Source: a virus
Direction: 5' to 3' (one strand)
DNA: 40,575 nt
IMG/VR virus record: IMGVR_UViG_3300021962_000238
Location: 1 to 40,575 of that record
A program made the translations under genes and the position numbers. The notes under the pieces were generated by a model that ran no database searches, was not told where the DNA came from, and saw nothing but the letters and a program-made list of their open reading frames with translations. Numbering within the stretch: position 1 is the stretch's first letter; each line of letters begins with the position of its first letter. Positions 17,873 through 39,503 of this stretch are shown here, piece after piece.

Positions 17873-18640
17873 GATCACCACGGATGGCGCACGCGCGGCC
17901 GGGCCGCCCGCGCCGCTGCAGAGCTTGCACCGGGCACACTGCGCGCCTCGCGCTACGGCCGGGCAGTGCAACTCGTTCTCGCGCACCTGCAGGTCGCCGG
18001 TAGTGCGGAAGTACCGCCACCCCATGGCGGTCGCGATCATCGCCTGCGCGGGACTTTCCACGCTGGCCATGCAATGCTCGCGCCACCATGCGCCACCCGT
18101 CAAGGCTCGCCGGTGCCACTGGTGCGTATACGCCGTATGCCCGGCCCTGCAGTGCTGCAGCAGCTCGCGCCACACCCGCGCAGGCACGGCCGCCGGGTCG
18201 CCGTAGGCTCCGAGCCGCACGGGAACGTCATGCGGCACGTGCCGCAGTCCCGTGCCCGTCCGCCCTGCGCGCCACGCCGCCCAGACTGAGCGGGGGGCCT
18301 GCCACGGTTCCACGTAGCATCGGCCGATACCGGCGCCAGTGCTCGCCTGCGCGAGGCCACCCGGGCCGCACCTGGACAACCGCGCAACGGCCGCAGCCTG
18401 CGCGGCCGGGTTCGCCTGCAGGTGGTGCCGGTGCATGCAGTCGCCGCATACGGCGCGGTCGCGACCCGAGCGTACGGCCGCGACCGGGTCCAGCCTGCGG
18501 GCTAGGATCCACGCCTGCAGCATGTTGCCCGTCTTACGGTTGCCGCTGGGCTCGCGCAGGCCGGACAGAAGTAGGATGATGGGGGAACGGTCCAAGCGGG
18601 AAGGCCCGGACCAAATGAGGGAAGTGTTAGGACTTGACAT
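17861..18640 (-). CDS. cysteine-rich conserved phage protein, unknown function
   Basis: 259 residues from ATG at 18640; TTG at 18595 would begin nearer the conserved part. Blocks in order: GLREPSGNRKTGNM (28-40), AVCGDCMHRHH (64-73), GRCYV (107-110), VRLGAYGDPAAVP (141-153), TAYTHQWH (169-176), GWRYFR (207-212), and CPAVARGAQCARCKLC (226-241). I recall this GNRKTG...CGDC.HR...CYV...GAYGDPAAVP...YTHQW layout from many phages, always without known function. The cysteines suggest metal or Fe-S binding. The gene stands alone on the minus strand; its start codon overlaps the -35 of the rightward promoter at 18634. Confidence 0.7.
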   Translation of the reverse strand: MSSPNTSLIWSGPSRLDRSPIILLLSGLREPSGNRKTGNMLQAWILARRLDPVAAVRSGRDRAVCGDCMHRHHLQANPAAQAAAVARLSRCGPGGLAQASTGAGIGRCYVEPWQAPRSVWAAWRAGRTGTGLRHVPHDVPVRLGAYGDPAAVPARVWRELLQHCRAGHTAYTHQWHRRALTGGAWWREHCMASVESPAQAMIATAMGWRYFRTTGDLQVRENELHCPAVARGAQCARCKLCSGAGGPAARAPSVVIAAH

Positions 18641-18661
18641 GGAAGCGCGCGACCCTACCCT
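18634..18661 (+). promoter_or_regulatory. sigma70-like promoter for the 18714 operon
   Basis: A perfect TTGACA (18634-18639) is followed after 16 nt by TACCCT (18656-18661), a weak -10. It lies about 50 nt before the first rightward gene. The -35 shares bases with the ATG of the leftward gene at 18640, so the two transcription units are physically linked. Confidence 0.45.
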
Positions 18662-18713
18662 TGCGGCCCACCGCGCGCAATACCGCGCGCGGGAAACCCT
18701 TGGAGACCGACTG

Positions 18714-19004
18714 ATGCAACCGCAACCCGAACCTACTCCCGACACTATCAGCCTTCGCCGGTTCCTGACCCGCGTGGCCACCCTTGCCGACACCCTGCAG
18801 CAGCTAGAGACCTGCAGTGTCTCGCGCGCGACTCGCGAGGAGCTGTTGGACGTTGCGCAGGAATGGGGCCGCGAGGCCGCTACCCTGCTGCAGCAGCACC
18901 CCGTGGTGCGCCTGGACGGCAACGGCAACTGGCAGCCGGTGCCCGGCCTGCGCAGTGATGCATGCCCGGATGCGGACTGGCGCGACGGGCAGGAGGTGCG
19001 GTGA
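18714..19004 (+). CDS. hypothetical protein, 96 aa
   Basis: ATG at 18714 follows TTGGAG with 8-9 nt spacing. The product has a Pro-rich N-terminus, a helical core (LTRVATLADTLQQLETC, EELLDVAQEWGREAATLLQQ) and an acidic C-terminus. Not recognised. First of three small, coupled rightward genes behind the TTGACA promoter, probably expressed early. Confidence 0.65.
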   Translation: MQPQPEPTPDTISLRRFLTRVATLADTLQQLETCSVSRATREELLDVAQEWGREAATLLQQHPVVRLDGNGNWQPVPGLRSDACPDADWRDGQEVR

Positions 19005-21475: not shown

Positions 21476-21844
21476 ATGCGACATGCCATGGCCGTCTTGC
21501 TCTCGACCGTCAGCGCCGCTGCGCAGAACCTTAGCGTGGCGGCTGTCTCTGATGGAGTCTCAGACCTGCAGGTGCGTTTCGCGCGCATCTCGGAGCTTGA
21601 GCTGCGCGTGATCTTTCCAGAAAGCCCCATGGCCGTGGTCGAGATCAGCGCCGGGCCAACCATGATTTGGTCGTGGATCATCCAGCCCTACCAAGGCCGC
21701 GACGGCTTCATCGAGCGGCCCAGCAACCAACACCCAGCCGAGCTGCGCATCCCGGTGCGGCTGATCCCTCCTGGAACGTGGCACCTGCGCGTGCTGACCA
21801 TCTATGGGCCGTCTGACACCATCGAGCTACGCACCTATCCGTGA
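21476..21844 (+). CDS. putative secreted protein, 122 aa
   Basis: The N-terminus (MRHAMAVLLSTVSAAAQN) resembles a signal peptide with possible cleavage after SAAA. The rest is beta-rich (LQVRFARISELELRVIF, MAVVEISAGPTMIWSWI, AELRIPVRLIPPGTWHLRVLTIYG), like a small beta-sandwich. No ribosome-binding site of note. It lies between a membrane peptide and the sigma gene, so a periplasmic or envelope role during early infection (for example exclusion) is possible but unproved. Confidence 0.6.
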   Translation: MRHAMAVLLSTVSAAAQNLSVAAVSDGVSDLQVRFARISELELRVIFPESPMAVVEISAGPTMIWSWIIQPYQGRDGFIERPSNQHPAELRIPVRLIPPGTWHLRVLTIYGPSDTIELRTYP

Positions 21845-22314
21845 GCGACGAGCAGTACGCCTTCCTGCGTAGAGTTTGCCGCAAGGCGCTGCGCCGATGG
21901 AACTGCTCTAAGGACTGGTCGCTCGATGAGTTCACCTCCTGGGGCTGGTGGGGCCTGGCGTGCGCCGAGCGCACCTTCGACGAGGCCAAGGGTTCCTGGC
22001 ACCCTTACGCCGCGTTCAAAATCAGGGGGGCCATCCTGGACAACCTCAAGCAAGGCTGCTGGAAGCTGCACGCCCGCTGGACGGACGATGAACAGCCGGT
22101 GTACCAGCCCAACCCATGGCACGAAGCCTTGTACGACCTGACCAAGACCTTGAACTTGCCGCAGCGCCAGGCGGTGTGCTGGTATTACCGAGACGGCTTG
22201 AGCCTCGCCGACATCGGCAAGCTCCAAGGTGTCACAGAATCTGCCGTCAGCTACAGACTCAAGGACGCGCGCGAAAAGATCCGACAGCTCGTCCTTGACG
22301 CCAAAAACATCTAG
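21841..22314 (+). CDS. phage sigma-like factor (regions 2 and 4)
   Basis: 157 residues, GTG start overlapping the previous stop. Residues 10-72 match sigma region 2 (LRRWNCSKDWSLDEFTSWGWWGL; ERTFDEAKGSWHPYAAFKIRGAILDNLKQ), and 104-150 match region 4 (LPQRQAVCWYYRDGLSLADIGKLQGVTESAVSYRLKDAREKI) with the helix-turn-helix at about 119-142. Region 3 is absent, as in small group-3/4 sigmas. It should bind host core RNA polymerase and redirect it. It is the last gene of the early operon, just before the terminator at 22406 and the late genes, the natural place for a late-switch factor. Confidence 0.82.
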   Translation: MSDEQYAFLRRVCRKALRRWNCSKDWSLDEFTSWGWWGLACAERTFDEAKGSWHPYAAFKIRGAILDNLKQGCWKLHARWTDDEQPVYQPNPWHEALYDLTKTLNLPQRQAVCWYYRDGLSLADIGKLQGVTESAVSYRLKDAREKIRQLVLDAKNI

Positions 22315-23588: not shown

Positions 23589-23772
23589 AGAAGACACGGC
23601 GTCGATCCTGCACATCCTGAGTTACGTCAACGACGCCGTGCAGCTTTTCGAGGAAGCCAAGACCGCTGGTCACGAAAAGCTCCCTCTGTCCGAATGGAAG
23701 TTCCTGCTTTTCGTGGACAAGGAGCTGAGAATGCTGCAAAGCAAACTCGAAAATGCCGCCCTCAACCCCTGA
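23581..23772 (+). CDS. hypothetical protein, 63 aa
   Basis: ATG at 23581 lies 8 nt inside the previous gene, and the last 20 nt overlap the terminase start. The product is a short helical protein (DTASILHILSYVNDAVQLFEEA, FVDKELRMLQSKLEN). Not recognised; possibly a packaging accessory protein. Confidence 0.6.
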   Translation: MAREDTASILHILSYVNDAVQLFEEAKTAGHEKLPLSEWKFLLFVDKELRMLQSKLENAALNP

Positions 23773-25408
23773 CAAGGACTTCGTCGCACAGTGCCTCAAG
23801 GACACGGGGTACTTGTGTCGAAACTTGCTAGGTTGGAACTACGACATGCGGAAGGACCCGGCGTCGGGTAAGCAGGTCAAGGCCAACATCGGGACGGGCG
23901 GCGTTCGCGACAACGGTCCTCATCGCATGATGACGGACTTCCTCGACGACCCGGCCACGCACCACAAGGTGATGCTCGCGCCGCGCGAGTCGTACAAGAG
24001 CACCATCCTTCAGGGTTTTGTCACTCGACAGATCCTGAAGGACCCCAACGTCCGCATCCTTTACGGCATGAGGACGGATGACCAGGTGTTCAAGAAAGCA
24101 CGCGCCATCAAGCGGTCGCTGGAAAGCGAAGAGATCGTCAGCCTGTTCGGCGACCAGAAGTCCGACTTCTGGCAAGACCTGGAGTTCACCGTAGCAGGTC
24201 GCACCAAGGTGAACCTGCAGGAGCCGACCTTCAGCACGTTCTCGCTCAAGTCGCCGCCGACCGGCGGCCACTTCGACTACATCATCTTCGACGACCCGGT
24301 AGACGACCGCGACTACATCAACAACGACAGCGCCGAGAAGGCCGAGTCGATGATCCAGATGTGCGACCCGCTGCTGACCACGGCGGGCTACCTCATCCTG
24401 GTCGGCACCAGATACCACGACCAAGATGTTTATGGTGTGCGTTCAAACAACGAGGAGTGGTCGTTTTTCAGCCTCGACTCCGGCGTAACCATCGAGCGCA
24501 CCGACAAGGGGTTTGAGCTGGCTGGCCAGCCGCGCTTTGGCCACCACGACAAGGAGTACCTCTACGGCAAGCTGCGCCGCATGGGGTACAACAAGTTCCT
24601 CAGCCAGTACATGAACGTGGTGCCGCAGGGCTTGCACCAGCCGTTCCGCCGCGAGGATTTCCAAGCCATCCGCTGGGACGAAGACATGCGCGGCCTGTCG
24701 GGCTACATCCTCACGGATACGGCGGTATCGGAGGACGACAAGGCGTGCTACTCGGTCATCGCCTACATCGGCTTTGACGCCAGGAACGTCGCTTACGTCC
24801 TGGACCTCCGTGTGGGCCGGTGGCCGCCGGTCGAGTTCGTGCAGACCTTGTTCGAGGTCTACCAGACCTGGCAACAGCGGTGCAACCACATCGGCGAGGT
24901 GTTCGAGGAGATCGGATTGAACACCGTGTTCATGGCCCCGATCCACGAAGAGGCCCGCAGGCGCAAGGTTCGCCTCAACATCATCAAGCTGAAGCGCGGC
25001 ATCAAGAACCGCAAGGTCGAGCGCATCCAGCGCCTAGAGGCCAGGTTCAACGACCGGACGGTCTACATCGTGGACACGGTACCCAAGCTGTTCCGCGACA
25101 TCGGCGGCAACCGGGTACTTTGGGACCCCAAGGGGTACATCGACCCGGCTACCGGGGCAAGCCTTCCGGGCGGCGAACTGGTCGAGCAGTTTGTGCGCTT
25201 TCCCGTACACCAGTATAGAGACATCCCTGATGCCCTTGCCGACATGGATGCTTTCGATGGCAACACGGGTGCGCGGTTGTTGTTCTACCGCAAGGCTCCG
25301 CGTATCGACTACGAAGGTGTTCAGGAGCGTCGAGTCCGCACTTCGCGCCAGAATCTTTGGAACGATTCCGGCGGCGACTGGTGGGACAAAGTGATCGGCA
25401 ACATCTAG
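23753..25408 (+). CDS. terL: terminase large subunit
   Basis: Packaging motor ATPase and nuclease, 551 residues. Walker-A-like APRESYKST at 76-84, Walker B YIIFDD at 176-181 with DDPVDDRDY after it, and the coupling motif VGTRYHD at 217-223. The nuclease domain begins near 318 with YILTDTA (D322), and the second acidic cluster is IPDALADMDA near 495. The start lies within the previous gene by 20 nt. The family is the podovirus-type terminase; packaging mode (headful or cos) cannot be told from sequence. Followed by two virion genes and the portal. Confidence 0.92.
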   Translation: MPPSTPDKDFVAQCLKDTGYLCRNLLGWNYDMRKDPASGKQVKANIGTGGVRDNGPHRMMTDFLDDPATHHKVMLAPRESYKSTILQGFVTRQILKDPNVRILYGMRTDDQVFKKARAIKRSLESEEIVSLFGDQKSDFWQDLEFTVAGRTKVNLQEPTFSTFSLKSPPTGGHFDYIIFDDPVDDRDYINNDSAEKAESMIQMCDPLLTTAGYLILVGTRYHDQDVYGVRSNNEEWSFFSLDSGVTIERTDKGFELAGQPRFGHHDKEYLYGKLRRMGYNKFLSQYMNVVPQGLHQPFRREDFQAIRWDEDMRGLSGYILTDTAVSEDDKACYSVIAYIGFDARNVAYVLDLRVGRWPPVEFVQTLFEVYQTWQQRCNHIGEVFEEIGLNTVFMAPIHEEARRRKVRLNIIKLKRGIKNRKVERIQRLEARFNDRTVYIVDTVPKLFRDIGGNRVLWDPKGYIDPATGASLPGGELVEQFVRFPVHQYRDIPDALADMDAFDGNTGARLLFYRKAPRIDYEGVQERRVRTSRQNLWNDSGGDWWDKVIGNI

Positions 25409-25422
25409 CAACGGAGCATTCG

Positions 25423-26733
25423 ATGGCCATTCTGACTCGTGAACAAGCAAACAAGTCTTTCTACCCGTACCAGGCGAGGAACACCTCGCAAAGTGTCGGT
25501 CTAAGCGATGCAATCACTGCCGGTCTTTTGAAGATTGACGGCAGCTACTTTGCAAGCAATCTGATCCCCGCTCGTACTGGGTTTGTGTACGTCGTTGATC
25601 GCCTCGTCATCAGCAGCCTTGGTGCGCCTGCCAACAGTACGGCACCGCATGACGGGGTGGTAACCGTTCGCGTTTCAAATGGCACGACGACCAAGGAGCT
25701 GTTTTTCAAGTCCGCGCGCGAGGATGTGAGCGGCGGCGATTACCACTCCTACAACATCGACTGGAAGGTCAACGGAAAGCTGGTTCTTGAAGAAGGCTAC
25801 GGCCTGAATGCCAAGATTAGCACTGCTTCCGGTTTTGCTCTTGGCGATGCTGTTGTCAGCATCATGGTGTACGGCGAGTACGTCCATGTCGAAGAGGCTC
25901 GCCAGCGCGGGCTTCTTGGCGACCTCGTGATTGCCTCGATGCACAGCGAAACCACCAACACGACGCTTGTGCCCAAGAAGGACGGCAAGCAGTTCGTCAT
26001 CGATGCGTTCTACGTTGTGGGCCTTGGTGCCACCAACGCAGCCATCGAAAGCATGACGCTGCGGTTCTCGTCGGCGGACAACGGCGGCGGCACGAACTAC
26101 AACATTTTCCGGTTTTCGTCGCGCCGTGGCGAGCTTTCCAACCTGGTTAACATGGGCACTTCGGGTTGCCACATTGGCGGCCCTGTTGGCTACGGAGTCA
26201 CCGGCATCCAGACCACGACCAAGAAGTTCTCCATCGTGATTCTTGGCCGCTACGTCAAGGAAGCAGATGTGTGGGATCCAACCGGAACTCACGTTGGCGT
26301 GAATCCAAATCCTACGACCGCCAACGGTGTTGTCGGCAAGGGCGAGCGTTTCTGGGTCTACAAAGCTGCTACGGCATCAACCGCGGCGCTGACTCCCAGC
26401 AACAAGCCTGGTTATGCCATCATCGAAGGCTATGCCTTCTCTGGTGTGCGAGATGCCACAACGGCTCTTCCTGCCGTCAGCGCGTTTTCCCTTGGATATA
26501 CATCCGGGTTGAACAGAGTGCCGATCACCATCACCAGCCATGCTTACGAAAACAAGGATACGCACTTGTTGATGGATCAGCTTGGTCTGCCGATTGCAAA
26601 CTCTGCTGAACTCAAGGGGCTTGTGGTTCCGACGCAAGTCGGCGTGAGCGCAGCTTGGGATCAGGCAAGCGTGACTATCTGGGGTCGTTACGTTAGCGAC
26701 AAGACTGCTCAGTACGTCGTGCGGGGTAGCTGA
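25423..26733 (+). CDS. triplicated beta-domain virion protein, 436 aa
   Basis: ATG at 25423 follows CGGAG. The product is beta-rich throughout, with three similar units, each ending in a strand of the type V.I.GxYV: MVYGEYVHVEE (near 150), VILGRYVKEAD (near 276) and TIWGRYVSDKT (near 422). No catalytic motif. Its place between terminase and portal, and this all-beta build, suggest a capsid decoration or head-fibre protein. The next gene (26736) has a matching C-terminal strand (LTLEGYYIHKD), so the two probably share a fold. Function inferred. Confidence 0.65.
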   Translation: MAILTREQANKSFYPYQARNTSQSVGLSDAITAGLLKIDGSYFASNLIPARTGFVYVVDRLVISSLGAPANSTAPHDGVVTVRVSNGTTTKELFFKSAREDVSGGDYHSYNIDWKVNGKLVLEEGYGLNAKISTASGFALGDAVVSIMVYGEYVHVEEARQRGLLGDLVIASMHSETTNTTLVPKKDGKQFVIDAFYVVGLGATNAAIESMTLRFSSADNGGGTNYNIFRFSSRRGELSNLVNMGTSGCHIGGPVGYGVTGIQTTTKKFSIVILGRYVKEADVWDPTGTHVGVNPNPTTANGVVGKGERFWVYKAATASTAALTPSNKPGYAIIEGYAFSGVRDATTALPAVSAFSLGYTSGLNRVPITITSHAYENKDTHLLMDQLGLPIANSAELKGLVVPTQVGVSAAWDQASVTIWGRYVSDKTAQYVVRGS

Positions 26734-26735
26734 TC

Positions 26736-27332
26736 ATGGGCATCTACGCACAAGGCTACGGGAAGGGCAACGCACACTGGCAGGCCAGCCGTTATCACAC
26801 GGCTGCGCCTGCGGTGGGCAACTACACCGCCACTTCCGCCACTACGACGAGCATCACGGTTACCGGCGCTGGGTTCGGGGTAAACGCGCACGTTGGCAAG
26901 ATCATTCGCATCACCAGCGGCACGCTTGCCGATACTTATCGCAAGGTCATCTCCAACACGGCGGACACGCTTACCATCGACACGTTGCCGTCTGCTCCGG
27001 GTGGAACCGAGACGTTTTCGCTGATGACCCCCATCACCATCCTGCCTGCGAAGACCAACTTCCTGCCGGTGGTGACGGGCATCACGCTGAACTACGACAG
27101 CAACCTCACCAGTTGCATCGCAGTGCTCGGGAACGGATTGCAGCCCACCAAGATCCACTCCGCGGATCTGGGCAGCAACCACAACCACACTTCGGTGTCA
27201 TCGACCGGGTGGGATCTGCTTGGCGATGCAGACCAAGGCATCATCCTCTGCACGCTCGTGGGCGGTGGGACCTTCTCGCTGACGCTTGAGGGCTACTACA
27301 TCCACAAGGACACGCCTAAGAGCTACATCTGA
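26736..27332 (+). CDS. beta-rich virion protein, 198 aa
   Basis: Starts 2 nt after the previous stop, and its TGA overlaps the portal ATG. Residues about 27-96 are a small beta-domain (TSATTTSITVTGAGF, NTADTLTIDTLP) also seen in the proteins at 32815 and 34761. The C-terminal half (NFLPVVTGITLNYDSNLTS to GTFSLTLEGYYIHKD) resembles one unit of the triplicated protein upstream. Likely a head or decoration protein. No enzymatic motif. Confidence 0.65.
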   Translation: MGIYAQGYGKGNAHWQASRYHTAAPAVGNYTATSATTTSITVTGAGFGVNAHVGKIIRITSGTLADTYRKVISNTADTLTIDTLPSAPGGTETFSLMTPITILPAKTNFLPVVTGITLNYDSNLTSCIAVLGNGLQPTKIHSADLGSNHNHTSVSSTGWDLLGDADQGIILCTLVGGGTFSLTLEGYYIHKDTPKSYI

Positions 27333-29602
27333 TGAGCAAGACAACCAGCGTCTCTCACGAGCCTGGGGCGATGACCCCAGACGAAGCCATCGAATGGACT
27401 CGGGCGCAGATCGGGGAGTTCCCGAACCACGCATCGAATCCTGAGATTGCCGAGAGGGTGCTGCGTTTCTGCAACGACCTGATGGCCACCCAGCGCGAGC
27501 GGATGCGCAAGCTCCACCAACGCTGGGAGGCCATCTTTCGCATGATGGCGGGAAACACGCTGGACCGGACCAGCCGATACGATGTGCATGTGCCCGAGGT
27601 CTACAAGGCCATCGAAGCCCTCGTGCCGCGCATCGAAGAAGCCGTGTTCGATGCAGACCCGCCTTTCCGCGTGCGCGGTCGCGACAAGGGTGACGAGCGC
27701 CGATCCGATGTGATCGGCGCGTATCTCGACTGGCAGCTAGACCAGTGCCGTGCGTGGGACCTCATCCAGCCTGGCGTGCGCGACATGCTCATCTGCCAGG
27801 CTGCGGCCCACAAGATTTGCTGGGACCGCAAGGTGCAGCAGCGCGTCCGGCGCGATGTCGAGCTTGTTCAGAAGAACAACAAGCCTGAGTACAAGATCAA
27901 CTCGAAGAAGATCGAAGAAGTCGTCTTTGACGGCCCGGTGATTCAGCTCATCGATCCGTTTTGCTTCTTCATCGATCCCAAGGCCACGACACCGCAGAAC
28001 GCCAGCTTCGTTGGCGACCTCAGCCTGTGGAACTACACCGACCTCCTGCGCTACGAGCGCATGGGCTGGTTCGTCAACGTCGATGGCTTGTTCGACAAGA
28101 GCATCAAGAAGCCGGTCGGCGGCAACATGGACAGCCGCGTGCCAAGCCGCTCGCTCTACGAGCCGATCTGGAACAGCCAGCGCGCTCGTGACCCCGCGAC
28201 CCCGTGGGGCAAGGAGTACTCCTCGATTAGCGAGGGCGAGGCCAAGAAGTTCTGGATCATGGAGGTCTGGTGCCTCTTTGACCTCTACAACGACGGCGTC
28301 GAGCGCGAGTGCGTGTTCACCGTGGCCGATGGCCGCGTAGTGCTACGCGCGCAGGAGAACTTCCTCGATTCGCAGGTGCGTCCCTACGCGACCGGGCGCG
28401 TGGCCAAAAACGGCCACAACTTCTACGGCACCGGCATCGTGGACAACGCGGTGCGCGTCAACGTAGACCTCGACCGCATCCGCAAGCACGCCACGCGCGC
28501 GGCGGAACTGTCGGTCAACCCGCTGGTGTTTACCGAGATCGACAGCTCGCTGCCGGACACGGTGTACGAGATTCAGCCTGGCACCATTTTCAAGGGCGTC
28601 GGCAAGGTCGAGATGAGCCGTATGCCCAACACGCTTGATGCCTGGAGCGTGGTGGAGACGGTCTACAAGAACGACATCGAGGAGATCATGGGATCGCCTC
28701 GCGTGTTCCAGGGCACGGAAGGCGCGGCTACCGCGACCGAGATGGAGCGCAAGGTCAAGGAAGCGAACCGTCGCATCCGAGCCATGATCCGCTCGTACTC
28801 AGACCTGTGGGTGCAGACGCTGCGGATCATGCACAACATGAACCAGCAGTTCACGACCGGCAAGACTGCGTTCCGGGTCATGGGCAAACGAGCCAAGCGA
28901 CTGACCGAATACGTCGAGCTTGGACCGGACACGCTGATGATGGATGTTGACTTCGAGTTCGTTGGACTCAGCAACCTCCACAGCTACGATCTGCGCGCGA
29001 CCGCGCTGCAGAATGCGCTGCAAACCACCATGCCGATCTTGATGCAGCATCCCGACAAGGTCGATATGCTTGCCGCGGCACACCAGCTCATTTCCTTGAC
29101 GGTTGGTCCCAGCGAAGCGGATTCGATTATCAAGGACTACGAGGATCCCGCCGACGTTTTGCCGCAGGAGCAAGAGAACTTGATGCTTCTGGCCGGGCAA
29201 GAGGTAGATGTTTCCGAGCTTGACGATCATCAGCAGCATATCGATGCGATGATCAGCATGGGGTTGCTTGATCGAGTGATGGACAGCAGTGTGGATGCGA
29301 GAGTTCGCACTGCAATCATGAACCATTACATGAAGCACGAGACGCTCATGGGACAGCAAGCCGCGCAGCAGCAGGCGCGGCAAAGGATGGCCGAACAGCG
29401 CGGAGCCATGCTACCTCCTGAAGCTGGGGGATCGGTCGGCCCGAACGGTCAGTCTCCTCTCCGTGGTGGAATGTCGGCGGCACTTTCTCAAGGCCCGGCG
29501 GTTACGCCACAGGGTGAGACGCCTGGGCCAGCGCGTTCCGCGGTCGTGGGCCGTGGCGGTCGCGCGCCTGATGGTATCCCGCAGACGGAGAACCGGATCT
29601 GA
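27332..29602 (+). CDS. portal protein
   Basis: 756 residues, the size of P22-type portals. The N-terminal part has EIAERVLRFCNDLMATQRERM and YDVHVPEVYKAIEALVPRIEEAVF, followed by LIDPFCFFIDPKA near 208 and DGRVVLRAQENFLDS. The central part includes GTGIVDNAVRVNVDLDRIRKHA; the helical C-terminal part holds TEMERKVKEANRRIRAMIRSY near 470. The last 80 residues are Gln/Ala/Pro-rich, like a barrel or disordered end. It forms the dodecameric DNA gate. Position between terminase and scaffold is standard. Confidence 0.9.
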   Translation: MSKTTSVSHEPGAMTPDEAIEWTRAQIGEFPNHASNPEIAERVLRFCNDLMATQRERMRKLHQRWEAIFRMMAGNTLDRTSRYDVHVPEVYKAIEALVPRIEEAVFDADPPFRVRGRDKGDERRSDVIGAYLDWQLDQCRAWDLIQPGVRDMLICQAAAHKICWDRKVQQRVRRDVELVQKNNKPEYKINSKKIEEVVFDGPVIQLIDPFCFFIDPKATTPQNASFVGDLSLWNYTDLLRYERMGWFVNVDGLFDKSIKKPVGGNMDSRVPSRSLYEPIWNSQRARDPATPWGKEYSSISEGEAKKFWIMEVWCLFDLYNDGVERECVFTVADGRVVLRAQENFLDSQVRPYATGRVAKNGHNFYGTGIVDNAVRVNVDLDRIRKHATRAAELSVNPLVFTEIDSSLPDTVYEIQPGTIFKGVGKVEMSRMPNTLDAWSVVETVYKNDIEEIMGSPRVFQGTEGAATATEMERKVKEANRRIRAMIRSYSDLWVQTLRIMHNMNQQFTTGKTAFRVMGKRAKRLTEYVELGPDTLMMDVDFEFVGLSNLHSYDLRATALQNALQTTMPILMQHPDKVDMLAAAHQLISLTVGPSEADSIIKDYEDPADVLPQEQENLMLLAGQEVDVSELDDHQQHIDAMISMGLLDRVMDSSVDARVRTAIMNHYMKHETLMGQQAAQQQARQRMAEQRGAMLPPEAGGSVGPNGQSPLRGGMSAALSQGPAVTPQGETPGPARSAVVGRGGRAPDGIPQTENRI

Positions 29603-31217: not shown

Positions 31218-32339
31218 ATGGCTTACGTCACTAATGCAGGCGGAACCGTCAACGAGGTGCTCATTCGTGAGCAGCTTGAGGACTGGGTTTCGATTATGGA
31301 TCCGACCGATGCGCCTCTGCACTCGGTCCTCACTCCGCACCCTGTCCAGTCGCGGTTTGTTGAGTACGGCGTGGACACGTTCGGCGTGGACTACACCTCG
31401 CAGACTCCGCTCCAGGAAGCAAAGGCGGAAGGCGCTGCGGCGGTTGATGAGCCGGAAATCTATCCGACTCGCCTGCGCTCGGTGATGCAGATCAACTGGG
31501 AATCGGCTTCGGTTTCCGGCACTGACCGCGCATCGCTGCACGCTGGTATCGATGAACCCTACGAGTACCGCGCGTACAAGACGTTGACCCGCGTTGTGCA
31601 GAAGGCCGAAAAGGCCATGCTGTTTGGCGTTGGCACGGTGGCCAATCCTGCGGCAAACGTCCGCGCGACTCAGGGTCTGCTGACCTGGGCGGCCATGACC
31701 GGCCTCCAGCGTTTCTCGCCTGACTTCAACGCGGTTGACCCAACCGCTTCGATTGAGGACAGGACTGGCAACGTCATCCCCAGGGCGTACTTCAGCACGT
31801 TCTTCAACGCTCAGGGCACGAACCTTGATCGCTCGATTCTGACGCACAGCATCCTCGGCACGGCCGTGAGCAACGGCTTCATCGCCGATGGCGCTGTCGG
31901 CATGGCGAGCTACAAGGTCAAGGGCTTGTTTACCGAGATGGGTCTGACCGCAAACGGTCCCATCAACGAGCGCAAGATCGACGCCCAGGACCGCATGTTC
32001 ATCGACGTTGTCGATGCCTACCAGACGGTTGCTGGCACGGTGTACATCAACTGGAACCGGTGGTTTGACCGTACTGGCAGCACGACGGTTTCTCCCACGG
32101 CTATCACCAGCGCCGCTGGAAGCCCGCTTACCGGCGTGACCAGCACGGCTGTGCCGTGGGCTGAATCGCTCGTGTTCATGATGCCCAAGTACATCCGTCG
32201 CGGTGTGTTCCGCGGTGCGTACATGCGGCCTCTGGCGGCTGACGGTGACCGTGACCAGTTCATGGTTATCACCGAAGGCGGCCTTATCGTTTTGAATCCC
32301 ATCGCGCTCTGCGGTGGCACCAACCTGCTGGCTCCCTGA
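31218..32339 (+). CDS. major capsid protein (SU10/DUF5309-like)
   Basis: 373 residues. The pattern, with an N-terminal DPTDAPLHSVLTPHP block, EYGVDTFGVDY, an EG-AAAVDEP stretch, RSVMQINWESASVSGTDRAS and YEYRAYKTLTRVVQKAEKAMLFG, matches the SU10-type major capsid family as I recall it, an HK97-fold relative. The C-terminal region is beta-rich with MPKYIRRGVFRGAYMRPLA. It directly follows the scaffold-like gene. TGATG overlap couples it to the next gene. Confidence 0.82.
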   Translation: MAYVTNAGGTVNEVLIREQLEDWVSIMDPTDAPLHSVLTPHPVQSRFVEYGVDTFGVDYTSQTPLQEAKAEGAAAVDEPEIYPTRLRSVMQINWESASVSGTDRASLHAGIDEPYEYRAYKTLTRVVQKAEKAMLFGVGTVANPAANVRATQGLLTWAAMTGLQRFSPDFNAVDPTASIEDRTGNVIPRAYFSTFFNAQGTNLDRSILTHSILGTAVSNGFIADGAVGMASYKVKGLFTEMGLTANGPINERKIDAQDRMFIDVVDAYQTVAGTVYINWNRWFDRTGSTTVSPTAITSAAGSPLTGVTSTAVPWAESLVFMMPKYIRRGVFRGAYMRPLAADGDRDQFMVITEGGLIVLNPIALCGGTNLLAP

Positions 32340-32812
32340 TGAACCTAATCCTGTATCGCTGTCGTAGTTGTCCGGCTGAGTTTGAGGCCGTTGGCACAAT
32401 CCCCACCGACGTTGACTGCCCCGAGTGCGGGAAGCAGGCGACCTGGTGGAAGGTCATGTACAACTTCGTGTCCGACAGCGATGTGGGAGAAGGTTTGCAG
32501 GTGCTAGTGAAAGACCGTGCTTGGGACTTTGATCCCAAGCACGGTTGCGTCAGCATCGGCGTCGAGAAGGCTGGGCGCACTCCTGAGCAGCAGGAGGCGA
32601 TCTACAAGAACGTCATCGCCGAGCACCAGCGCCGCGCGCACGAGCGCGACTCGTCGCTTGGCCGCAAGGACGACAACACGTTCCGCAAGATCGGCTCGAT
32701 CCCGCGCGAACTGTTCGAGATGCGTCGGCGGCAGACGGGCAACCCGAACTACTGGCAGGAAGAAGGCGCACGCGCGCTTGTGCGCGAGGGCCTGTACTTG
32801 GGTAAGAGGTAG
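32339..32812 (+). CDS. FmdB-like zinc-ribbon protein, 157 aa
   Basis: An N-terminal zinc ribbon (LYRCRSCPAEFEA, then VDCPECGKQATWW) is followed by a helical, basic part (AIYKNVIAEHQRRAHERDSS; IPRELFEMRRRQTGNPNYW). The ribbon pattern is that of FmdB-type regulators, but the C-terminal part suggests a phage-specific head protein. It lies between the capsid and adaptor genes, unusual for a regulator. Function unknown. Confidence 0.65.
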   Translation: MNLILYRCRSCPAEFEAVGTIPTDVDCPECGKQATWWKVMYNFVSDSDVGEGLQVLVKDRAWDFDPKHGCVSIGVEKAGRTPEQQEAIYKNVIAEHQRRAHERDSSLGRKDDNTFRKIGSIPRELFEMRRRQTGNPNYWQEEGARALVREGLYLGKR

Positions 32813-32814
32813 CG

Positions 32815-34761
32815 ATGGCGAAACTCCCCTGCTTCATCTTCTTTGGCCAGTCCAACATGGAAGGGGCTGGCAACCTTGGGCAAGCAGGGTTCGACCTTGC
32901 GGGCAACTTGTCTCGCTGGTTTGGCGTAGGTAGCTATTCGCCGGGCATCACGCAGGCTCCAGGCATCAACTACTGGATGGCACAGATGCCGTCCACCAAC
33001 TATGTCGGCGGCGAACATGCGCCGATTAGCGGGACGGCAACGTCGGCAACGGTGGACACGCTTGTCGATACCGGAACAAACTTCAACAATATGCCGCCTG
33101 CACAGGTGGTTATTACTGGTGGAACTCCAGTAGCGGCGATTGGTCAACTTCGCAATGTTGCAAGCGTTACTGGCTCCCACACGCTGAACCTTACGCAGCC
33201 GTGGGCGGTGACGCCTAGCGATTCTTCGACCTACACGGTTTACCGTGCGGGAACGCTCAACGTCGCAACTTACAAGGGGTCGTTCAAGCCGCTTCAGTTG
33301 ACTGTGTATGGCACCCAGACCTACACGACCGGCTACGAGTACTGCTCGTGGTACAGCTTTCCGCGTCAGACTCCGCAGCAGGGCACGGTCGGCCAGATCG
33401 GCCCGGACCTCGAAGCAACGTGGCAGCTTCAGCACGCTTTCGACGAGGACATCTGGGTCATCAAGCTGTCCATCGGCAGCACTTTTCTCAGCCGCTACCG
33501 CGGCACGCTGGCTCCTTCGTCGTACTTCGCCGAGACGGCGTGGTTCCGCCCGGCTCGCCACAATAGCTGGCACCCTGCGGAGACCGACAAGCAGCCTCCT
33601 GCGCTCAACGCCGACTGGACGGTCAACGACTACAGCTACGGCCTGTTTGGGATGCTGATCGACAAGATCCTGATCGAGAAGGCTACGGCGTGGATCGCGG
33701 CTAACCGGCCTGGCGACACGCTCGACGTTCGCGGCATCTTCGGAATGCTTGGCGAAACCGACAGCACATTCGCCGAGCGCGCGGCCATCGCGGGCCAGAA
33801 CATGCAGATGGTCCGCGACGTTATGCGGTCCAAGATTGAAGGCGCTGGGCTGTCGCAGACGATGGGCAAGAACATCCCGTTCGTCATCGGCGGCGTCCGC
33901 AACAAGGGTTTTTGGACCTACGCTGGCACGGTCAACACGCAATACAAGCAGCTTGCTACGGACGACCCGTACAGCGGCTACGTCAACACCGACGACCTGC
34001 CTAACAACGATTTGACCGACCAAGCGCACTACAGCGCCGCAGGTCAGGTGACGTTTGGCAAGCGGCTGTACGACGAGTGGGTGCGGGTCAGCAAGCGCCA
34101 GCAGGACGCGAACCGTTACCCTGCATCGCGCAAGACGCTGGGCCAGCTTCGCACCGAAGTCAAACGCCGCTACGAGCGCAACGCCGTGGACAACGACGCC
34201 ACGGACGAGCGCATCAACCAGGCGATCAACGACAGCCTGCGCGAGATCTACAACACGCTGGGCGACTCGGCGTGGTTCCTGCGGCGCACAGAGTCGTTCA
34301 CGATCACCAGCGATTACCAGACGCCGGTCACGCTGCCACGCCAGGTCAACCGCATCTTGGCCATCGAGAACCCCATCAACTACGGTCGCACCATCACGTT
34401 CGACCACATGGGGTACACGGACGAGGGCCGCATCAAGATCCGGCTGTTGAGCGACCCCGGTGGCACCTTTGATGTCCACTTTGTCTGCCTGCCGACCGAC
34501 CTCACGGACGACAGCGAACTGGCGCAGATCCCCAACGAGTACACCGAACTGGTTGTGGTGATGGCTGCCATGCGGCTGGCCCAGACCGGCGGGCATCAGG
34601 ATCAGGTTGCCATCCTTGGCGGCGAGATGCAGCGGCTGTGGCGTGGCGCTTGGCGACAGGCGCACATCCAGGACCGCCGCCGTGCTGGACCGATGGTGCT
34701 CAAGGATCGCGCGCAGGAGCCTGCGCCTGGTAGCGACTGGAACAGGGACATGTACTACTGA
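32815..34761 (+). CDS. SGNH esterase fused to head-tail adaptor
   Basis: 648 residues in two parts. Residues 1-420 form an SGNH/sialate-O-acetylesterase-like enzyme: FFGQSNMEG at 9-17 (nucleophile S13), GMLGETDS near 310 and DQAHYSAAG at 402-410 (D402, H405). A small beta-domain (about 66-145) is inserted after the first block. Residues about 435-648 (RKTLGQLRTEVKRRYERNAVDN, INDSLREIYNTLGDSAWFL, LPRQVNRILAIENPI) look like a podovirus head-tail adaptor. It likely deacetylates host-surface glycan while sitting at the neck or tail. The start ATG has GAGG 6 nt upstream; no internal stop separates the parts. Confidence 0.8.
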   Translation: MAKLPCFIFFGQSNMEGAGNLGQAGFDLAGNLSRWFGVGSYSPGITQAPGINYWMAQMPSTNYVGGEHAPISGTATSATVDTLVDTGTNFNNMPPAQVVITGGTPVAAIGQLRNVASVTGSHTLNLTQPWAVTPSDSSTYTVYRAGTLNVATYKGSFKPLQLTVYGTQTYTTGYEYCSWYSFPRQTPQQGTVGQIGPDLEATWQLQHAFDEDIWVIKLSIGSTFLSRYRGTLAPSSYFAETAWFRPARHNSWHPAETDKQPPALNADWTVNDYSYGLFGMLIDKILIEKATAWIAANRPGDTLDVRGIFGMLGETDSTFAERAAIAGQNMQMVRDVMRSKIEGAGLSQTMGKNIPFVIGGVRNKGFWTYAGTVNTQYKQLATDDPYSGYVNTDDLPNNDLTDQAHYSAAGQVTFGKRLYDEWVRVSKRQQDANRYPASRKTLGQLRTEVKRRYERNAVDNDATDERINQAINDSLREIYNTLGDSAWFLRRTESFTITSDYQTPVTLPRQVNRILAIENPINYGRTITFDHMGYTDEGRIKIRLLSDPGGTFDVHFVCLPTDLTDDSELAQIPNEYTELVVVMAAMRLAQTGGHQDQVAILGGEMQRLWRGAWRQAHIQDRRRAGPMVLKDRAQEPAPGSDWNRDMYY

Positions 34762-37700
34762 TGCAAACCGGCACGCAGATCGTTTCCGTTCGCGGCGAAG
34801 GCGCATGGTCAGGCATGACCACGCTCACGACAAGTGAGCGCGGTGATCGCCGACTGGCCAAGCTGGAGAACTGCTACGTCAACGTGGACGGCAGCGAAAT
34901 CCGCACCTTCCCTGGGATGCGGTGCGTCGTGGACTTGCAGACCTTGCCCGAGAGCCGCGACACGGGCTACCGCCGCAACTTCGTGGATGCGATGCGGCCT
35001 GACTACACGACCAGCGCGACCTCGAAGTACCTGAACGCCGTGGCCAGCAGCACGGTGGCCGAGGCCGACAAGCTGTACTGCTGGACCAATCCGACGCGCT
35101 TCCACTCGTTCCACTTTGTGCGCGGCAGGATGGTCATCCTTGGCGAGTCGGACTTCCGCAAGGAGCCGATCTTCAGCGCCGATGGCATCCAGCGCACGGT
35201 CACGGAGATTGCAAAGTCTGGCGCGAACACCATCCTGACGTTGAGCGGTAGCTATCGCTCGGAGGACTGGGAGTTCAACGGCATCGGGCGCGAGCGCGCG
35301 ACCTTGACGGACCCGACCTACGGAGTCCTGTCTGGCCGTGGTGCTTGGATCTATCTTGAGAACGTCCCTGCCGTGGCTGGTTCCACGGTGCAGGCGGACC
35401 TCAACAACAAGTTCCACGCGGTTGAATCACAGATTGGCAACACGGTCACGTTGTTTACGACGGTGACGACGCTGGCTGCACCGGCCACGGGTCTTGATGT
35501 CGCCATCTGGCGATGCAGGCCAGGCACGGCTCAGTACCGCACCAGCCTGACGACCGGCGTCGGCTACTACGACACCGATGTCAACTTCAAGCCGGTCGAG
35601 AGCTATGCGGTGGACGACCCCGAGGCGCTGACCTCGTGGATGCTGATCGACCGCCCCAGCCTGTCCGTGCCGGTCAAGACCTCGTACCAAGCCAACGTGG
35701 CCAACCGCATCCGCGACTTCGGCGGCGTTGGCAAGCTGGTGACCACGACGGGCACGGCAACCAACGATGGCGGCTACGGCTACATCACGCTGGCCGACGC
35801 CAACCGTTTTCCCGCGGGCGCGTTCTCGTGGTTCGATTACCACTACTACGTTCGCCTGACCATCGGCGGCAACGTCCAGATGCGCCAAATTTTTGGCAGT
35901 AGCGCTACCGACAACGAGGACATCACCGGAACGGTCAGCACTTCTACGACCACGACGATCAACGTCACGGGAACTCCGTGGACCGGATTGAACCTTGTGG
36001 ACCGCGTGGTGGAGACGAACAACGGCTTCAGCCGCATCGTTGCCAACACTTCCTCGCAGATCAGCTTCAACCCTGCGATCAGCCCTAATCCTACCGGCAC
36101 CTTCACCATCCACGGCAACAGGGCCAAGGTAACGGTGTACCCGACTTGGGGCACAACCGGCACTGGCACCGTTGAGATCCTTAGCTACGGACGCCAGGAG
36201 GGCGGTGAGCGCGCCGTCAACCGTATTGGTCTCGACTCTGGCCCGTACAGCTTTAGCCGCCGCCGCCAGAAGCGCATCCCGTACCGCCCGGTGCCGACGA
36301 TCAGCGGCGACCGCTTGCTCATCGCAGCGCCAGGATACGGATGTGTGTTCCAGTCGCCTGCGGTCTACCCCATCGACCCGACGCTGACCTCGCAGCCCGA
36401 AGGCCAGCCGAGCCTGACCAACGACCGCGACAACATCATTCGTTGCGTGGGCGTTCCCAAGGCCATCCTTCAGTGCGACCTCCGCAACAAGGATTCGGCC
36501 ACCAAGGTCGAGTCGATGAACCTTAGCCGCAACGTGGCCATCAAGGGACTGTCGGCCAAGGAGTATTCCTACAACACGGTCCACACCGGCAACAACTACG
36601 CAGGCGCTACGCGCGGGGGCGATTACGCCTTCGCCGTTGCCTACAAGGACGAAGCCACGGGTGAAGTCGGCTTGTTGAGCGAGTCGTGCATTGTCAAGAC
36701 GCCAAACACAGGCGAGTGGGGCGTGACGCTGCGCGTGCTGTATCCCGGCTACCTGATGGCCGAATGCGCCGCCTACAGCCTGCTCGTCTACCGCAGCAAA
36801 AAGGACGCGCTGGACTCGCTGTACTTCATGGGCGAGTACAGCTACGGGCGACAGCAGGAATCGTTTGATCCCAACTTGTTCGCCATCCGTGGTCCGTACT
36901 ACGACCTTGGCGCAGACCAGCTTGGCCGCGATCTTGGCAAGGGCCTAAACGAAAGCGCCAACTGGACGGCGCTTAGTGGCAACACGGTCACGGGCACCTC
37001 TGGCGAAGTCATCGTTACCTACGTCAACAACGCTGAGGGCGCAACCGCCGCGTTGAGCGCCGCTGGCGACCTGACCTCCGACCTCATCGTAGACCGCTGG
37101 TACAAGGTTACGGGCGAAGCCAAGGTCAGTGCTGGAGCCAGCGTCAACATCGCCGTCAACACCACCGCAACCATCCAAGGTCCGACGATCACGAGCACGA
37201 GCTACGTTCCTTGGACGATGTATTTCAAGGCAACCAACGCCACTAGCAACACGTTGCGTTTTGCCAACATGCAATCCACTGAGGTTATCACGGTTCGCAA
37301 CCTGACCGTGAAGCTCATCAGCGAGGACTGCGCCAAGTACGAGTCTAACGGCAAGTACGGTCTGTCCATCGCTTGGCCGACGCCGGACTCCGCGCTGCTA
37401 TCCACAGAGCGTTCCGACGATGACGCGCCTGCGGTCTTCGCCACGATCCACAACATCCAGTACATCAACGACACGGAGCTTGGTCTCAACGAGACCGCGC
37501 CGCCCGTGCTCAACCAGATGCCTCGCGGTGCCAAGGCCGTGCGGACGATCCGCGGCTGGACGTTCTACGGCGGTAGCCAGGGCAACTGCGGTGAGAACGG
37601 CGAGATGCTGGCCGTGGACGTTGTGGCCGCCTACGACAACGAGAGCTACCCGAACCCAGGCTTGCAACAGTACGACTGGCTGTACCAAGACGAGGTGGCT

Positions 37701-39503
37701 ACCCAGCCGTGGCCGTCGCCTGTCATCAACAGCCAGTACCGGCTGCCGACTTCGGCCAACGGATCGGATGCGTACCTGTGCGCGCAGGACATCATCCCGC
37801 CCAGCTACGCGGGCTTGGACTTCCTGACGCCAGGGATGTTTCCGTACCCGTCCAAGACCAGCAAGCTGGACCGGCTGGTCAACATCGACATCGTGAGCAC
37901 GCCTGCGGCTGGCATCCAGCCTCCGCGGTGCGAGGGTGCGGCACACGCATGGCCGCGCTGGAAGATCACCAACAGCCCGTTCCTGAGCAGCCAGGAGTCC
38001 TACGAGCGCACGGGCAAGGCGTACATCAAGCTCCCGCGCGGGCGCTTCCAAGTGTCCGAGCAGGGCTTCCCGTCGATCACGCCCGCCACGAACACGGGCT
38101 TCCTCGACAACGAGAACGATGACGACATAGAGGCGATTGGGCAGTATGGCGGTCAGGCCATCCTGTGCAGTCGCCTGCGTACCTACACGGTAGGCTGGAG
38201 TGGGTCGCCGATCACCGATGTTGGTGTGGTGCCGCCGGAAATCGCCAGCCCTGAGTTCGGGTGCATCGCCGCCAACAGCATGGTCGAGTTTGATGGCGGC
38301 CTCGCCTGGATCAGTGACCGTGGTCCGGTTGCCATGACCGGCGAAGGGGTACAATGGATTGGCCGCGACCTCGCTTCGGACTTCTTCGGGGAGACCGCGA
38401 AGTACAAGCGCGACAGCAACGGCATGATGCGCCATTCGTGGGCGTGCCATGACCCCGAGCGCGGTCTGGTCTACTTCGGCCTGTTCTCCAACCGCAACAA
38501 GACGCTGGGCTACAAGACGCTGAACATCAGCTTCCGTGGCACGACGGTCGAGTGGGACACGGCCAGCGACGAAGCCAAGTCGTTCTTCCCGTGCGACGAG
38601 GTGCTGATCTGGTCGTACCGCTCGAACGCCTGGTCGGTGTACTACCCGGCCACGCGCATCCACCCGGACTCCAGCACCTACTTCGGCAGCACCGAAATCC
38701 TGTGGATGGCTCGCGGCCCGGACAGCACGGGCACCCAGCGCGTCTACGCCATGCAGGCGGACGGGCGCATCTACGCGCTCATCGACGAGAACAACGACGC
38801 CAACGTGGACGGCCTGACGCTGAACATCAACGCGGCTGGCACGACCACGCTGAACAGCTTCACCGAAGCCGTGGTCGCGTTTGACCCAGGCAGCGGATCG
38901 CCGGGCCAGACCTACGCCAAATGGGCGAGCAACGAGTACCTGCGCGCGGGCATGGAAGCGGTCATTACGGATTCGACGGGCACGGTCCTCAAGGGCCGGT
39001 TGGCCGTCAAGGAATGGAATCTCGGCAATCACGAGATCACCCTGTGGGCACCAGTGGCCGACCAGGGCGCTTTCTCGTGGGTGTCGGGTGACAAGCTGGT
39101 GCTGGGCGCACGCACGATGAGGATGACCACCAACTACTTGAACATGAAGGGTCATTCAGACCGCGCTTCGGTGCGGCGCATCGGCGTGCGCTACAGCCTT
39201 CGCAGCAAGCTCACCACTATCGGCACGGGCGACCAGCTTCCCGCGTTCGCACGCGCGACGGCACGGGTCAACAAGCGGTCGGCTGTCGGAACTTCGACAC
39301 CCAGCCCGACCAACGATGTCAGCCTTTCGGCGGTCACGACGGTGGACACGTTTGACTACTTGGGCAAGAGCTACAGCGACGGCAGCAGCCGCGACTACGG
39401 CTTTACCAGAGCCTTGCCGGTTGGCCAGGAGTTCAGCCTGACCATCGAGGCCATCGGCACGGCCCAGGTTGCCGTCCAGGACATCTATGCCGAGGTGTCC
39501 TAG
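34761..39503 (+). CDS. giant nozzle-like tail tube protein, 1580 aa
   Basis: N-terminal part (GTQIVSVRGEGAWSGM, RRLAKLENCYVNVDG) and the core motif around 1155-1215 (VGVVPPEIASPEFGCIAANSMVEFDGGLAWISDRGP) fit the T7 gp12/P22-type tail nozzle family, in which a beta-propeller follows the adaptor. At 1580 residues it is about twice the T7 protein. Insertions include the small beta-domain at about 387-455 and a carbohydrate-binding-like beta domain near 735-850 (NWTALSGNTVTG to TVRNLTVKL). ATG overlaps the adaptor stop (TGATG). It is likely the tail tube distal part, perhaps with receptor-contacting insertions. Confidence 0.78.
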   Translation: MQTGTQIVSVRGEGAWSGMTTLTTSERGDRRLAKLENCYVNVDGSEIRTFPGMRCVVDLQTLPESRDTGYRRNFVDAMRPDYTTSATSKYLNAVASSTVAEADKLYCWTNPTRFHSFHFVRGRMVILGESDFRKEPIFSADGIQRTVTEIAKSGANTILTLSGSYRSEDWEFNGIGRERATLTDPTYGVLSGRGAWIYLENVPAVAGSTVQADLNNKFHAVESQIGNTVTLFTTVTTLAAPATGLDVAIWRCRPGTAQYRTSLTTGVGYYDTDVNFKPVESYAVDDPEALTSWMLIDRPSLSVPVKTSYQANVANRIRDFGGVGKLVTTTGTATNDGGYGYITLADANRFPAGAFSWFDYHYYVRLTIGGNVQMRQIFGSSATDNEDITGTVSTSTTTTINVTGTPWTGLNLVDRVVETNNGFSRIVANTSSQISFNPAISPNPTGTFTIHGNRAKVTVYPTWGTTGTGTVEILSYGRQEGGERAVNRIGLDSGPYSFSRRRQKRIPYRPVPTISGDRLLIAAPGYGCVFQSPAVYPIDPTLTSQPEGQPSLTNDRDNIIRCVGVPKAILQCDLRNKDSATKVESMNLSRNVAIKGLSAKEYSYNTVHTGNNYAGATRGGDYAFAVAYKDEATGEVGLLSESCIVKTPNTGEWGVTLRVLYPGYLMAECAAYSLLVYRSKKDALDSLYFMGEYSYGRQQESFDPNLFAIRGPYYDLGADQLGRDLGKGLNESANWTALSGNTVTGTSGEVIVTYVNNAEGATAALSAAGDLTSDLIVDRWYKVTGEAKVSAGASVNIAVNTTATIQGPTITSTSYVPWTMYFKATNATSNTLRFANMQSTEVITVRNLTVKLISEDCAKYESNGKYGLSIAWPTPDSALLSTERSDDDAPAVFATIHNIQYINDTELGLNETAPPVLNQMPRGAKAVRTIRGWTFYGGSQGNCGENGEMLAVDVVAAYDNESYPNPGLQQYDWLYQDEVATQPWPSPVINSQYRLPTSANGSDAYLCAQDIIPPSYAGLDFLTPGMFPYPSKTSKLDRLVNIDIVSTPAAGIQPPRCEGAAHAWPRWKITNSPFLSSQESYERTGKAYIKLPRGRFQVSEQGFPSITPATNTGFLDNENDDDIEAIGQYGGQAILCSRLRTYTVGWSGSPITDVGVVPPEIASPEFGCIAANSMVEFDGGLAWISDRGPVAMTGEGVQWIGRDLASDFFGETAKYKRDSNGMMRHSWACHDPERGLVYFGLFSNRNKTLGYKTLNISFRGTTVEWDTASDEAKSFFPCDEVLIWSYRSNAWSVYYPATRIHPDSSTYFGSTEILWMARGPDSTGTQRVYAMQADGRIYALIDENNDANVDGLTLNINAAGTTTLNSFTEAVVAFDPGSGSPGQTYAKWASNEYLRAGMEAVITDSTGTVLKGRLAVKEWNLGNHEITLWAPVADQGAFSWVSGDKLVLGARTMRMTTNYLNMKGHSDRASVRRIGVRYSLRSKLTTIGTGDQLPAFARATARVNKRSAVGTSTPSPTNDVSLSAVTTVDTFDYLGKSYSDGSSRDYGFTRALPVGQEFSLTIEAIGTAQVAVQDIYAEVS

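Follow-up and report, generated by a model that had tools for sequence, protein, structure and literature searches.

An SU10-type head-tail adaptor gene that carries a predicted SASA/CE6-type esterase in the same reading frame

In positions 1 to 40,575 of the IMG/VR virus record IMGVR_UViG_3300021962_000238 (hereafter the window), one gene on the forward strand (32815-34761, 648 residues) encodes a SASA/CE6-type esterase fused to an SU10-type head-tail adaptor. The reading we favour, with a probability of roughly 0.6, is that the product is a head-tail adaptor with a working SASA/CE6-type esterase on its N-terminus, which would ring the neck of the virion and deacetylate surface glycan. An earlier note, made from the sequence alone, had proposed such a fusion. 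Families, synteny and predicted folds agree with a single esterase-adaptor protein, and the interpretation as a whole is supported in part, the architecture standing and the role at the neck staying conditional.

The frame begins with an ATG, accompanied by an AGAGGT Shine-Dalgarno-like site, and ends with the stop codon at 34759-34761. Its first 425 residues (32815-34089) make up the esterase domain, which is recognized by Pfam SASA (PF03629, E 9.8e-10 in a scan of the whole protein). Relatives from bacterial genomes (Acidovorax, Marinilabilia, Alteromonas, Thiotrichaceae and Thalassotalea) and from viral contigs align across the entire domain, sharing the blocks GQSN, GPxL, IKxxxG, GE-D and D-x-x-H. 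The earlier note had listed a full SGNH/sialate-O-acetylesterase-like set of residues and each of its members is present: GQSNM at residues 11-15 near the N-terminus (block I, invariant in the alignment, with the codon of the catalytic Ser13 at 32851-32853) and, near the C-terminus of the domain, both GETDS at residues 313-317 (GETD, residues 313-316, 33751-33762, with G, E and D invariant) and the catalytic pair Asp402-x-x-His405 (34018-34029). Ser13 was assigned from motif position and alignment, and the Asp-His pair additionally from the profile of the relatives.

When compared with the PDB, the profile of the esterase relatives detects 1ZMB (8e-21), 2APJ (1e-17) and NanS (3PT5, 5e-7). The AlphaFold2 model of this half has a confident core, residues 31-193 being without a usable model. 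NanS, 1ZMB and 2APJ rank first in a Foldseek search with it, and a second structural comparison gives 2APJ (Z 22.9) and 1ZMB (Z 22.8, 2.2 A over 215 residues), followed by the tailspike of cyanopodophage Pan3 as the third match (Z 21.2). Structure prediction thus recovers the SGNH core, and as modelled the esterase half has the SGNH alpha/beta fold, the insertion at 31-193 aside. Since the model can be overlaid on 1ZMB across both catalytic blocks, the catalytic triad would assemble in the predicted fold; the earlier note had named a triad that does not assemble as grounds for refutation. Judged from sequence and model, the N-terminal half is a complete SASA/CE6-type SGNH esterase with predicted deacetylase activity. 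The insertion comprises about 160 residues (approximately residues 31-193, 32905-33393), as delimited by the alignment and by low model confidence. Within it, residues 61-155 (32995-33279) have a GC3 of 0.59 against 0.73-0.84 in the flanks. Its similarity to beta-rich stretches of the product of 26736-27332 and of the 1580-residue protein encoded downstream is faint and not significant.

The C-terminal half contains an SU10-type adaptor domain (residues 441-626, 34135-34692). When this half was scanned alone, Pfam SU10_adaptor (PF24175) matched at 54.4 bits (E 3e-14, curated cut-off 27) over nearly the whole Pfam model; two differently cut pieces scored 53.0 and 54.5 bits, accepted adaptor relatives score 31-59 bits, and the reversed sequence of this half, taken as a control, gave no match to the family. 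The family is absent from HMMER output for the whole protein and for pieces of at least 239 residues, and the 54-bit match vanishes on the addition of 16 residues (34042-34758 versus 34090-34758). As the match is strong in the shorter cuts and lost in the longer ones, this reflects an effect of the HMMER prefilter and not a missing domain. The fusion suggests that the adaptor half can escape standard HMM annotation: routine annotation would display the esterase alone, and fused adaptors may generally be under-annotated.

The AlphaFold2 model of the adaptor half (26-sequence alignment, pLDDT 78, pTM 0.72) runs helix, helix, five strands, helix, helix, forming a four-helix bundle and a five-stranded beta domain. 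Its best 18 Foldseek matches are all phage neck or adaptor structures, from phages that include SU10, GP4, LME-1, KHP30, Pa223, VP1, A4, P1, P-SCSP1u, B2, N4, phicrAss001 and Moo19. The second structural comparison gave Z 13.5 for 9K09, the tail tubular protein A of cyanophage A4, and Z 10.6, 9.2 and 8.0 for T7 gp11, KP32 TTPA and P22 gp4, respectively. The alignment supplied to AlphaFold2 was one of adaptors and may bias the model; the Pfam match and synteny are independent of that bias. The resemblance of this half to podovirus adaptors, anticipated beforehand with T7 gp11 and P22 gp4 as the comparisons, is hence borne out in family, fold and gene order.

With respect to gene order, the fusion gene occupies the exact slot of the free-standing adaptor in cyanobacterial podoviruses, after the genes for an SU10-type portal protein (27332-29602; Pfam SU10_portal, E 1.9e-31) and an SU10-type major capsid protein (31218-32339; Pfam SU10_MCP, E 6.8e-33), and further downstream of a terminase large subunit gene (23753-25408; PHROG 38, E 7e-49), all on the forward strand. 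Arthronema virus TR020 and Anabaena phage A-4L have their genes in the sequence terminase, portal, scaffold (or, in its slot, a hypothetical gene), capsid, tail tubular A and a gene of about 1,020 residues, which in A-4L is tail tubular B. Two small genes lie between capsid and tail tubular A in TR020 only; in the window, a small zinc-ribbon protein (32339-32812, forward strand; Zn_ribbon_8, E 4e-6, under the curated cut-off) is encoded between capsid and fusion. The free adaptors of TR020 and A-4L have 217-221 residues, and their start aligns just before helix 1 of the fusion, at the end of the linker. The fusion gene is followed on the same strand by a gene for a 1580-residue protein (34761-39503), placed in the nozzle (tail tubular B) slot from its position only, with weak PHROG hits and no match to a nozzle profile. 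This protein is much longer than its slot counterparts in TR020 and A-4L, has no strong family match and may hold extra domains. Elsewhere in the window, 4179-12986 encodes a 2935-residue protein that matches no Pfam family and may be an internal ejection protein, 21841-22314 a small sigma-70 region 4 protein (E 5e-8) that may regulate phage transcription, and 18339-19004 a weak Nif11-like domain (E 2e-4, just below the curated cut-off).

The fusion was seen in one genome only, among about 90 related adaptors checked. Direct tblastn searches of 50,697 phage genomes with the full protein and with either half gave no match, nor did a search of GTDB genome contigs with the full protein or of IMG/VR with an alignment of the N-terminal half and NanS, and PHROGs and NCBIfam gave no useful match to either half. 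Single-protein scans of IMG/VR with the two halves, the product of 25357-26733 and the terminase matched solely L003, a 6-kb contig with a terminase 92% identical, which stops short of the fusion gene. The DNA pattern for FGQSNMEG was found in five IMG/VR contigs, three of them with a readable ORF at the motif and none with an adaptor fusion, and none of the 80 loci from a terminase-alignment scan has an ORF of the GQSNM/GESNM type. Similarly, in viral loci collected by way of relatives of the terminase and the adaptor, none of about 47 recognised adaptor frames has an esterase, most of these frames being free-standing with 190-282 residues. Among 694 prokaryote genomes (398 from the Acidovorax relative's phylum and 296 from the phylum to which the Marinilabilia relative belongs), PF24175 gave 43 matches in open frames of 70-348 residues, none with an esterase, in counts biased against long fusions, as the prefilter would miss the window's own. 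The 348-residue case (L134) looked on inspection like merely an open upstream frame.

Additions of other kinds were observed on adaptors. Two related viral contigs, L096 (1306-2586, reverse strand) and L098 (1321-2601, reverse strand), contain 427-residue adaptor frames with an N-terminal extension of about 170 residues, and therefore the adaptor N-terminus tolerates additions. The extension differs from the esterase and is a second kind of N-terminal adaptor addition, in a pair that is distant from the fusion. In L045 (10686-11702; equal to L103), a 339-residue adaptor has its SU10_adaptor match split in two, which suggests an inserted domain in the beta region.

The claim that esterase and adaptor lie in one uninterrupted frame holds on examination of the junction, and it is very improbable that an assembly or sequencing error fused a separate esterase gene with an adaptor gene. 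Such an error would fit a fusion present in one contig whose nearest relative (L003) is without the region; however, no stop codon occurs in any of the three forward frames at 34050-34447, which includes the whole linker (residues 423-440, 34081-34134, forward strand), and therefore an indel error cannot have merged two genes. Although a mis-called (lost) stop is conceivable, in that case no good start would be available to the adaptor, codon composition runs continuously over the junction (GC3 0.84 at the end of the esterase, 0.80 in the linker and 0.86 in the adaptor), and the window yielded a single adaptor-like gene. The junction also bears on whether the gene gives a short adaptor as well, through an internal start around residues 412-423 or cleavage of the linker, so that most ring subunits would be without esterase or the esterase would be freed as an enzyme. 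The nearest in-frame starts around the linker, GTG 34048 and GTG 34081, would yield products of about 226-237 residues, the size of free adaptors, and AGGT stands immediately upstream of 34048. Nevertheless we consider this unlikely: 35% and 53% of internal in-frame start codons reach the Shine-Dalgarno energies of these two codons (-3.3 and -2.5, respectively), which are thus no better than this background, residue 412 falls within the conserved last helix of the esterase, and there is no known protease site.

Granted a single intact product, either half might still have a role other than that of its family. Phage enzymes can be repurposed for binding, and the esterase fold may have been retained as a glycan-binding (receptor-binding) domain and not as an enzyme; the residues near the GE block do differ from those of relatives (GMLGETD here versus WMQGE[TA]D). 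We find this quite improbable, however, as Ser13, the GE-D block, Asp402 and His405 are all retained at only about 25% identity to bacterial enzymes. That the C-terminal half is some other neck or tail protein of similar topology is hardly credible. Its identity to known adaptors is below 25%, and a local profile that we built from cyanophage-type adaptors, excluding the fusion sequence, did not match it; yet Pfam SU10_adaptor scores 54 bits across nearly the full model, and fold matches and synteny favour an adaptor.

The preferred reading, an adaptor that bears a working esterase, allows a mechanism to be proposed. The adaptors of SU10 and T7 are dodecamers with the portal on one side and the hexameric nozzle on the other, and they dock the tail fibres (PMC9509320, PMC6702177). 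The adaptor half of the fusion would likewise assemble as a ring of twelve subunits on the SU10-type portal and keep the tail nozzle in place, with about twelve esterases tethered by the 18-residue linker and hanging around the neck. We infer this ring, its neck location, the exposure of the esterases to the outside, their activity and their substrate, and also the roughly twelve copies at the collar, because the adaptor family (T7, SU10) forms dodecamers. In T7 the nozzle meets the adaptor at the loop joining helices 1 and 2 (PMC6702177), which by analogy would put the N-terminus of helix 1 on the portal side and so the esterases near the capsid-neck junction, where it is not evident that twelve 45-kDa domains would fit. 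While the virion approaches and comes to rest on a cell, the esterases would strip surface polysaccharide in the vicinity of the tail of its O-acetyl (or similar ester) groups, and this would expose a receptor or loosen the surface layer; such deacetylation at adsorption seems the most economical function. SASA/CE6 relatives act on several acetylated glycans, and the capsule is a candidate substrate only.

Glycan-stripping virion enzymes are known on tailspikes and fibres, parts which are easily swapped between phages. In a fusion to the adaptor, the enzyme becomes part of a component essential for assembly, probably in twelve copies, and the fusion suggests that the adaptor N-terminus can bear large cargo and that a core assembly part can also bear a surface-attacking enzyme. 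We would put even odds on the neck-ring protein itself being the surface-glycan enzyme of this podovirus, with about twelve esterases fixed by the fusion and the attack built into head-tail joining, independent of any attached spike. If true, this would offer a clear experimental case of enzyme function at the neck; earlier claims of activity there concern bare adaptors, for which no active site has been proven.

On comparison with known systems, the fusion is like the SU10-type adaptors (SU10 gp11, PF24175, including tail tubular protein A of A-4L and TR020) in family, fold and position between the capsid gene and the next long gene; these are mostly free proteins of 190-282 residues, whereas the fusion adds about 425 N-terminal residues forming an enzyme. 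With the SASA/CE6-type SGNH hydrolases (1ZMB, 2APJ At4g34215 and NanS) it has in common the core fold, the Ser in GQSN, GE-D and the terminal D-x-x-H, and it differs from them in the insertion of about 160 residues after block I and in the joined virion assembly protein.

Searches of open-access papers turned up no description of an adaptor fused to an esterase or to any other enzyme domain, an absence that is weak evidence; the earlier note had likewise taken a fusion of this kind to be apparently undescribed. Tailspike esterases are known, as are adaptors with weak hydrolase activity, and the new element is the esterase-adaptor architecture, which we could not find described. The esterase tailspikes and fibres (G7C gp63.1, Moo19 gp82, B2 gp49 and cyanopodophage Pan3) have a virion-borne esterase, as predicted for the fusion; G7C gp63.1 is an earlier virion SGNH esterase, and the Moo19 and B2 tailspikes cleave p-nitrophenyl acetate (PMC11654681). 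Their enzyme belongs to a tail-attached spike or fibre, whereas here it is carried on the neck ring protein itself, and in place of the tail-attachment domain and trimerising spike or fibre of that class, the rest of the fusion protein is an adaptor and not a spike anchor. The tail tubular protein A adaptors of KP32, KP34 and phiYeO3-12 are reported to hydrolyse carbohydrate (PMC5440376, PMC5741709, PMC7060351), the candidate residues in PMC5440376 being given without a mutation test. Like the fusion, they link an adaptor to carbohydrate hydrolysis; their glucosidase-like activity, however, lies within the adaptor, whereas in the fusion a separate recognizable enzyme domain has been added.
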